Assembly: GCA_947311115.1 (NCBI GenBank)
Contig: CAMZKE010000049.1
Coordinates: 1-41,212 of the forward strand
Length of the DNA: 41,212 nucleotides
Origin: an uncultured Bacteroidales bacterium
GTDB lineage: Bacteria; Bacteroidota; Bacteroidia; Bacteroidales; JAFGXI01
Reading direction: 5' to 3'
Made by a program: the position numbers and the translations under genes. The notes under the pieces were generated by a model. The model was not told the origin of the DNA, searched no databases, and worked only from the letters and a program-made list of their open reading frames with translations. This document shows positions 3,098 to 41,175 of the stretch, in pieces (the stretch's first letter is position 1; every line of letters starts with the position of its first letter).

Positions 3098-3108
3098 CCA
3101 AAGTTTTA

Positions 3109-3182
3109 CGAATAGGAGTGCCACAACGGCTGAGATAATATCCTTTGAACCTGATACAGATAATGCTGTCGCAGGAAATTCA
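3109..3182 (+). promoter_or_regulatory. TPP (thiamin pyrophosphate) riboswitch
   Basis: The conserved THI-box blocks appear in order: GGAGTGCC (3115-3122), GGCTGAGATAATA (3128-3140), CCTTTGAACCTGAT (3142-3155), CAGATAATGCTG (3157-3168) and CGCAGGAAA (3170-3178). It lies about 70 nt upstream of the TonB-dependent receptor ATG, with its own -7 element before it. The expression platform is unclear: no strong terminator lies between the aptamer and the start, so control of translation initiation is more likely, which is inference. Confidence 0.95.
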
Positions 3183-3249
3183 AATTTTACCTCACTTACA
3201 TCAAGCACTTTTTATTCGATTTTAGTTTAACAATTTAAATTTTTAATCG

Positions 3250-5676
3250 ATGAAAAGATTTTTTACAATTAGTTTATTACTAGTGGTTGTACTAGGTTTA
3301 CAAGCACAAAAAATTAAGTTATCAGGAAAAATAACCGATAACGAAAACAATCCATTACCGGGAGCAGCTATACAAATTAAAAACACTTTTTTAGGTACAA
3401 CTACTAATCAAGATGGAGTATTTGAATTTAACTTAAAAGAAGGTGATTACATCTTAAATTTTAGTTTTATTGGTTATAAGGATGTTGAAAAAACTGTTAA
3501 GCTTAATAAAGATTTAATCCTAAATGTACAATTAGAACCAAATACAGTTATGACCGATGAGGTTATTGTAAAAGCCACGCGTGCTAACGAAAACACTCCT
3601 GTTGTACAAACTACAATAAATAAAAAAGATATTGCAGTAAATAGTAATACTGCCGATATCCCTTTTCAACTTGAGATGTTACCTTCGGTTGTTGCTACTT
3701 CGGAAAACGGAACAGGAATGGGCTACACAGCTATGCGTATTCGTGGTACAGACATGAGTCGTATTAATGTTACAATGAACGGAATACCGGTTAATGATGC
3801 CGAATCGCAAGGCGTATATTTTGTAAATATGCCTGACTTTACTGCTTCGGTTAACTCAATTCAAGTACAGCGTGGAGTGGGTACATCAACAAATGGAGCC
3901 GCATCCTTTGGTGGCTCAATAAATTTTCAAACTCTTACATTAGAACCAAAACCTTATGCTATTTTATCGCAATCGGTTGGTTCTTTTAACACATTTAAAG
4001 AAAGTATTTCTGCTGGTACCGGTTTGTTAAATAATAAATTTGCATTTGATGTTAGATATTCAAAATTAAACTCTGATGGATATATAGACCGTGGATTCTC
4101 TGACCATCAATCGTTTTATTTCTCAGGTACTTATTATGGAAGAAAAGATATGTTGAAAGCTGTAATTTTGTTAGGAAAAGAGAAAACAGGTATTACTTGG
4201 TGGGGAGTGCCTAGTGATATAATTGATAGTATCAGAACATTTAATCCTGCCGGAGAATATTACGATAAAAATGGGAAACAGCAGTTTTATGACGGACAAA
4301 CCGATAATTATTGGCAAAATCATTATCAATTATTGTATTCAAGAGAATTATCTCGTAAATTTAGTTTTAATGCAGCATTACACGCCACAACAGGCAAAGG
4401 TTATTATCAGCAATATAAAACTAACGATAATTTTAGTGAATACGGTTTAAGCAATATAATTTATTCTAACGATACAATTTCTTCAACAGACTTAATTCGT
4501 CAAAAATGGTTAGATAATTTATTTTATGGCTTTACATCAAGCTTAAATTATAACTACAATAAGTTTGATGTTACACTTGGTATAGCCGGAAACAAATACG
4601 ATGGCGACCATTTTGGCAATATTAAATGGATGCAACACAATAACGGTACTGCTCAAGATTATCAATGGTATAAAAATAACGGTACAAAAACCGATTTTAA
4701 TACATTCTTAAAAGTTCAGTATTCTCTTAACGAGAAATTATCATTTTATGGCGATGTTCAGTATCGTAAAATACAATATAAAATGCAAGGTCCCGACGAT
4801 GATTTAGTTATTTTAGACCAAACAAATAATTATAATTTTGTTAACCCTAAGTTTGGTGTAAATTACAAATTAAATAATAGTAATACAATTTATGCAACAT
4901 TTGGCATTGCTAACAGAGAGCCTACCAGAACAGATATAAAAGATGCATCAAAAAATGGAGGTAAAACATTTCCTATGCACGAAACACTGTACGATTATGA
5001 GCTTGGGTATCAAATTACGAAGCAAAAATATGCTCTTGGTGTAAATATTTACTATATGGATTATAAAAATCAATTAGTTAGTACAGGTGAATTAAATAGT
5101 GTAGGATACCCAATAATGACTAATGTTGATAATAGTTATCGTACAGGTGTAGAATTTATTTTTGGAGTAAAGCCTATAAAAAATCTTGAGTGGATTGGGA
5201 ATATTACAGTTTCAAAAAATATTATTAGTAATTATGTTGATTATGACTATCATACAGATGTTAACTGGAATTACACTTATGAGAAACGAGAGCTAGGAAA
5301 TACAAATATTTCATACTCGCCTGAATTAATTGGAGCAAGTACAATATCTTATACTTTCCTTAAAAGCTTTACTTTTAACTTTATCAGCAAATATGTAAGC
5401 GACCAATATATTGATAATACTATGAGCGATGCTAGAAAACTAGATGCATACTTTATAAACAATGTTCGTCTAGATTTTTATAAGAGTTTTGATAAAGCAC
5501 CAAATTTTAGAATGCAATTTTTAGTTAATAATATTTTTAATGTAGATTATATTAGTAATGCCTATGGTGGCAAGTGGTACGAAACTGATGGTAAAAAAGA
5601 AATAGAAAAATCGTGGGTCTATTATTATCCTCAAGCAGGTGTTAATTTTATGATTAAATTGGCGTTAGAGTTTTAA
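3250..5676 (+). CDS. TonB-dependent outer-membrane receptor, predicted thiamin uptake
   Basis: 808 aa. Signal peptide 1-19 (ends LQAQ). A carboxypeptidase-regulatory-like beta-sandwich (about 22-105, GKITDNENNPLPGAAI...) is followed by a plug domain (about 110-230, with RIRGTD, GIPVNDAESQG and GAASFGGSINFQT) and a 22-strand-type barrel ending in the terminal aromatic F typical of outer-membrane beta-barrels. The TPP riboswitch directly upstream implies repression by intracellular TPP, so the cargo is most likely thiamin or a precursor. No SusD partner or inner-membrane thiamin transporter is adjacent. Confidence 0.93.
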   Translation: MKRFFTISLLLVVVLGLQAQKIKLSGKITDNENNPLPGAAIQIKNTFLGTTTNQDGVFEFNLKEGDYILNFSFIGYKDVEKTVKLNKDLILNVQLEPNTVMTDEVIVKATRANENTPVVQTTINKKDIAVNSNTADIPFQLEMLPSVVATSENGTGMGYTAMRIRGTDMSRINVTMNGIPVNDAESQGVYFVNMPDFTASVNSIQVQRGVGTSTNGAASFGGSINFQTLTLEPKPYAILSQSVGSFNTFKESISAGTGLLNNKFAFDVRYSKLNSDGYIDRGFSDHQSFYFSGTYYGRKDMLKAVILLGKEKTGITWWGVPSDIIDSIRTFNPAGEYYDKNGKQQFYDGQTDNYWQNHYQLLYSRELSRKFSFNAALHATTGKGYYQQYKTNDNFSEYGLSNIIYSNDTISSTDLIRQKWLDNLFYGFTSSLNYNYNKFDVTLGIAGNKYDGDHFGNIKWMQHNNGTAQDYQWYKNNGTKTDFNTFLKVQYSLNEKLSFYGDVQYRKIQYKMQGPDDDLVILDQTNNYNFVNPKFGVNYKLNNSNTIYATFGIANREPTRTDIKDASKNGGKTFPMHETLYDYELGYQITKQKYALGVNIYYMDYKNQLVSTGELNSVGYPIMTNVDNSYRTGVEFIFGVKPIKNLEWIGNITVSKNIISNYVDYDYHTDVNWNYTYEKRELGNTNISYSPELIGASTISYTFLKSFTFNFISKYVSDQYIDNTMSDARKLDAYFINNVRLDFYKSFDKAPNFRMQFLVNNIFNVDYISNAYGGKWYETDGKKEIEKSWVYYYPQAGVNFMIKLALEF

Positions 5677-39103: not shown

Positions 39104-39200
39104 TTTAATCTGTTTGGGTTTAATTCCCCGTCCCTTGGGACGTATAAAAGAATAGTATTCCAAAACAATACCTCATCCGCTTGCGGCGAGGAGATTCATT
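39104..39200 (+). repeat. Two-hairpin repeat, family 1, reference copy
   Basis: 97 nt: TTTAATCTGTTTGGG, AATTCCC, hairpin 1 CGTCC-CTTG-GGACG (39130-39143), linker tataaaagaatagtattcc, then hairpin 2 CCTC-(bulge)-TCCGC-TT-GCGG-CGAGG (39171-39192), ending ATTCATT. Differs from the copy at 41079-41175 at three positions only. Confidence 0.85.
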
Positions 39201-39407: not shown

Positions 39408-40958
39408 ATGAAAATTCTACCTATATTATTCTTTATTTTAATTTCTTTTGGATCTATTTTAAGTAATAATCAATCTCATATTGATGAGGTAAGGTATGGA
39501 AAAATTGACTCAAAACAATATACAATCAAGGAGATAAATAATTTAATAGTTCTTTATAAAGACTCATTACTTATTGCAAACAATGAAAACCAAATTAGAA
39601 AAGTAGCATTTTATAATTTAATAATATCAAAGCTATATTACAAACTAGGAAGCTATAATAATAGTATTGCTTTTGGGAAAACAGCCATACAGAATTATAA
39701 AATAATTAAAGACACTTTTTTTATAGTTTCTGCTCTTACAAATATTGGAGCTATTTATGGCGAAATTCAAGAGAAAAAGATAGCTTTTGAATATTTTAAA
39801 CAAATAGAACAACTTGCTTTAGAATCAAAAGACACTATAGTTTTAGCGTATAATTATATTAATCTAGGTGTATCATCATATGATGTAAATAATTCGTTAT
39901 ACTATTTTAAAAAGGCACAAGCTGTATTAGGTGATAAGAGAATAAATGAAACTTTTTATTTTAATCTGTCAGTAAATAAAGCTGCTATTTATTTTGATTT
40001 AGGTAAATATTATGATGCTAAAAACATTTATTTAAAATCGTTTTCTGAAATTGATTCTACCCATTTTTTTTATGGTGATATGGCTACTAATTTAGCACAA
40101 TCTTATGCAAAATTAGGTGTGTTAGATTCTGCATTATTTTACAGTAAACTTGCATTGTATGAGAATCCAAATATGCGTAACTTTAATAATTTGGTTAATG
40201 CCTATTCTATTATTACAGATATTTATTTAAGACTTAATAAAACAGATAGTGCAAGATATTATTTAGAAAAATACAAAGATTATAATGATAGTTTAATCAT
40301 AAAAAAGAAAACAGAATTTACTTCAAAACTTAGAGTTATATACGAAACAGATAAATTACTTAGCGATATTGAAAATAAAAAACAAGAACTTGAGAAATCG
40401 GATGCAAGATTAATTAATATGGCAATTGCATTAATTGTTACTATTATTGGTGTAATAATTTTTATTTTTTATTACCAAAAGCTTCAAATTAGTTATAAAA
40501 ACATTGTTAAGGAAAGTGTGCAAGCTATAAAAATGGAAGAACAAATTGCTAGTTTAGAAAATATATTAAGCATTGAAAAGGATGTTGTAAAAAAGGAGGA
40601 TGTAAATATTGAAAATAGTGATGAAATATTTGCAGAGATAATACGAATATTAGAACAAGAGAAATTATTTACTGAAGAGGATTTTGATGTAAATAAACTC
40701 GCAGATAAATAAAATACTAATAGAACATATATATCAAAAATTATTAATACTAAAACAGAAAGCTCTTTTGTTTCGTTTATTAATTCTTACAGAATTAAAG
40801 AAGCTAAAAAAATGCTTATTGATGAAAATTATAATAATTTAACTTTAACTGCTATTGGTAAAATGGCAGGCTTTAAATCGTCGGCTACATTTTATCGTGT
40901 TTTTAAACAAAAAACAGGTGTAACACCTTCTTTCTTTATGAAAAATAAAAATTTATAG
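39408..40958 (+). pseudogene. TPR membrane sensor with AraC-type DNA-binding domain, interrupted by an in-frame TAA
   Basis: From ATG 39408, 434 codons read to TAA 40710-40712, and the same frame then continues for 81 codons to TAG 40956-40958. Signal peptide (1-19), TPR-type helices about 30-310, a coiled linker, one transmembrane helix (about 345-365, INMAIALIVTIIGVIIFIFYY), a cytoplasmic coil, then the start of the AraC domain (KLFTEEDFDVNKLADK). After the stop: NTNRTYISKIIN, SFINSYRIKEAKKML, LTAIGKMAGFKSSATFYRVFKQKTG, VTPSFF: both HTH motifs of the family. Together they give a complete one-component regulator of a type frequent in Bacteroidota. The stop sits in the first HTH where LADKxNTNRTYIS is expected, so as translated the protein cannot bind DNA. 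Nonsense mutation, read-through or sequence error are all possible. Confidence 0.85.
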
Positions 40959-41078: not shown

Positions 41079-41175
41079 TTTAATCTGTTTGGGTTTAATT
41101 CCCCGTCCCTTAGGACGTATAAAAGAATAGTATTCCAAAACGATACCTCGTCCGCTTGCGGCGAGGAGATTCATT
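41079..41175 (+). repeat. Two-hairpin repeat, family 1, near-identical copy
   Basis: 97 nt, three substitutions relative to 39104-39200. One changes hairpin 1 from a CTTG to a CTTA loop, and one converts an A to G (CCTCA to CCTCG), which restores a G-C pair in hairpin 2. The two copies flank the TPR-AraC gene in direct orientation, 1,975 nt apart. Confidence 0.85.

Follow-up and report, generated by a model that had tools for sequence, protein, structure and literature searches.

A single in-frame TAA codon interrupts the DNA-binding domain of a TPR-AraC regulator gene in a Bacteroidales draft genome

A gene for a TPR-AraC regulator of an uncultured Bacteroidales bacterium is interrupted by one in-frame TAA codon, placed midway through the first helix-turn-helix (HTH) of its AraC-type DNA-binding domain. 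We consider it probable that a single recent nonsense substitution inactivated a dispensable membrane regulator at this site. Rather than a new mechanism, the TAA most likely marks a recent gene inactivation of an ordinary kind, or else an error in the consensus. The window, that is, the whole stretch of 41,212 nucleotides analyzed here, corresponds to contig C49 of a draft genome (3.53 Mb, 163 contigs).

Layout of the interrupted gene

The premature TAA occupies positions 40710-40712 of the plus strand, in an open reading frame that can begin at ATG 39348 or ATG 39408. The second of these is the more likely start of the gene; the N-terminus that it gives, MKILPILFFILISFGS, is hydrophobic and typically signal-peptide-like. 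From there, the 5' part of the gene (39408-40712, plus strand) encodes, in order, the hydrophobic N-terminus, a TPR region, a single transmembrane segment (about 40417-40480), a linker and the premature stop. The TPR region, which lies N-terminal of the transmembrane segment, matches TPR_12 with 38-39 bits against a cut-off of 30.1 (7e-10), and the transmembrane segment is the hydrophobic stretch INMAIALIVTIIGVIIFIFYY, read directly from the translation.

The sequence-only reading of this DNA had proposed that 81 open codons encoding an AraC HTH follow the stop, and both points held. The 3' remnant (40713-40958, plus strand) stays open for exactly 81 codons up to the natural stop, TAG 40956-40958, with no second stop or frameshift; in Markov-shuffled window DNA, inter-stop runs of at least 81 codons make up 0.13% of all such runs. 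Searched alone, these 81 residues give matches to HTH_18 (5.2e-15, 55.9 bits) and to HTH_AraC (5.4e-10). When the profile is aligned across the stop, the HTH_18 match reaches 59.4 bits against a cut-off of 33.6 and covers positions 1-79 with no shift and one TAA inside. The double-HTH of about 80 positions expected of an AraC/XylS-type domain is therefore present above the curated cut-off, but it is not translated as one piece. The TAA lies at what we take to be the end of the helix preceding the NRTYISK helix, the helices being assigned by analogy with AraC/MarA.

The gene is flanked by two copies of a 97-bp dispersed repeat in direct orientation, one upstream (39104-39200, plus strand) and one downstream (41079-41175, plus strand), just beyond which the contig ends. 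The copies are identical at 94 of 97 positions, and the repeat, which contains two short GC-rich hairpins, matches at least 40 places in the genome. Elsewhere in the window, a TPP riboswitch (3104-3194) lies upstream of a gene (3250-5676) that appears by eye to encode a TonB-dependent receptor, an arrangement that suggests a thiamine-related role for the receptor gene. Positions 565-906 encode a small, secreted-looking protein built from repeated NAEYKAD-like units.

Homologues and the age of the stop codon

A full-length, intact orthologue (L010/L039) is found in G004, a genome that belongs to the same family as the window's own. Its open frame of 516 codons continues past the stop position, and the alignment (49% identity over positions 7-514) runs straight through the TAA column. 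Identity is 45% before the stop (193/428 residues) and 63% after it (51/81 residues). Among 13 intact homologues in the alignment, the TAA column holds leucine in 11 and isoleucine in two, and reading by eye gives leucine in a further two, more distant homologues of the order, bringing the column to Leu in 13/15 and Ile in 2/15. None of the 15 ends at this column. The proposal that a single nonsense codon parts the sensor half from the DNA-binding half, with no frameshift needed, is thus supported: the orthologue and the homologues align gap-free at the TAA column. Orthologues that likewise end at the stop, with an independently translated HTH protein, had been named as one outcome that would speak against this proposal; neither such orthologues nor such a protein was found.

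Clear orthologues are limited to two of the six family genomes, the window's own genome included, which is why we regard the gene as dispensable. The other genome of the same genus (G001) has no orthologue, only a distant homologue of 31% identity, and 393 genomes of the order contributed just two further homologues, both distant. Of two contig scans for further orthologues, the first returned none and the second, with a two-sequence alignment as the query, only the known G004 orthologue. The window's own genome holds several intact paralogues of the gene and ten HTH_18 matches, the present gene being the sole interrupted one.

The pattern of divergence bears on the age of the lesion. Identity to the orthologue at codon positions 1, 2 and 3 is 0.65, 0.89 and 0.49 after the TAA, compared with 0.59, 0.73 and 0.47 before it. 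From this pattern, the part beyond the stop appears to have been under selection as coding sequence during most of the period after the two lineages split. Because that part shows the codon-position pattern of selection and no second lesion, the stop would be either recent on the scale of this divergence or an error. A gene free of any second lesion does not demonstrate decay itself.

The stretch coding for the transmembrane segment has a close counterpart in a second G004 locus. Window positions 40402-40480 and positions 385-463 of L057 (G004:C145) are identical at 77 of 79 bases (97%), and the matching frame in L057 has stops close on both sides of the shared bases. The real G004 orthologue, at 45% protein identity before the TAA, has a different transmembrane segment from the 79-base stretch. 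The L057 stretch may be a decayed paralogue, a short transferred piece or part of a chimeric contig. An open reading frame of L057 (753-1298, minus strand) begins, by eye, like a ketoacyl synthase, and its tail (YWSSTVNG...GYTVRCIKD) resembles, again by eye, the tails of variable proteins of diversity-generating retroelements; L057 may be chimeric.

Alternative explanations of the TAA codon

The strongest alternative, which we judge possible but considerably less probable than a nonsense substitution, is that the TAA is a consensus base error or the minority allele of a strain mixture, the gene being intact in most cells. It has to be weighed because the contig ends only about 500 bases beyond the stop. 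Indeed, the evidence weighing against a genuine substitution is that the lesion is one base in a 163-contig draft, near a contig end that bears a repeat, and the downstream frame, free of further lesions, looks selected. On the other hand, the consensus is not generally poor: among 122 domain matches sampled genome-wide (10 HTH_18, 47 Response_reg, 31 ABC_tran and 34 HATPase_c), only one is interrupted, namely the HTH_18 of the present gene, and the other families were sampled without stops. Moreover, one-base substitutions are less typical of consensus errors than indels are, and the lesion here is a one-base substitution. We take the base at the TAA to be probably real.

The remaining alternatives fare much worse. 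The intact N-terminal part and the several intact paralogues in the same genome would be in keeping with a truncated TPR-transmembrane protein that is retained as a functional product, e.g. as a decoy or dominant-negative partner of the paralogous regulators. This is improbable, as no homologue was found with its end at the TAA column. We give marginally less credence still to the broader idea that the TAA is a naturally kept switch, with the truncated membrane protein or a rare read-through product having a regulatory role of its own.

Read-through or recoding of the TAA, yielding some full-length regulator, would agree with the open and conserved downstream part, but the other results make it very improbable. 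No tRNA with a TTA anticodon, and hence no suppressor, was found among 33 tRNA places, a set that is incomplete in a draft genome; most window genes, 25 of the 30 clear ones, terminate in TAA; the region around the stop (40690-40760) gave no folding signal (z +0.84); and no homologue carries the same stop. Reassignment or suppression of the stop codon was likewise rejected, with one interrupted match in 122 and no TTA-anticodon tRNA. Equally remote is a split regulator in which the HTH half is made separately as a small protein by internal initiation: the 81 open codons would allow it, but a search for a translational start within 40713-40810, proposed in the sequence-only reading, found none in frame, the first start codon (ATG 40812) would yield 48 residues lacking the first HTH, and no split homologue was found. 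The results on tRNAs, domain matches, terminator use, folding and start codons together make read-through, reassignment and a split protein unlikely.

Predicted loss of regulation and comparison with known systems

A recent nonsense substitution thus stands as our preferred explanation. The intact gene would have encoded a one-component membrane regulator with an N-terminal TPR sensor, a transmembrane helix and a cytoplasmic AraC HTH, from a family with several members in the same genome. A single recent substitution would have hit the conserved leucine codon in the first HTH, and translation ending at TAA 40710 would leave a membrane-anchored TPR protein without its DNA-binding domain. We infer that this product does not regulate, so that regulation by the TPR-AraC protein would be lost. 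Whether substitution or error, the finding is ordinary and matters little past annotation, where marking the gene as a probable pseudogene would keep either half from being counted as a functional regulator. It is one case in which a dispensable regulator with several paralogues has probably been lost.

A literature search on TPR-AraC regulators returned no directly relevant paper. The order of parts and the type of HTH domain here are the same as in the TPR-transmembrane-AraC one-component regulators of Bacteroidetes (TPR_12 plus HTH_18), intact examples of which occur in this genome and its relatives; the present copy differs by the nonsense codon in the first HTH. With recent bacterial pseudogenes formed by nonsense substitution, it shares a single in-frame stop in place of a conserved residue, an otherwise open frame and intact homologues elsewhere, and we saw no feature in which it differs from them.
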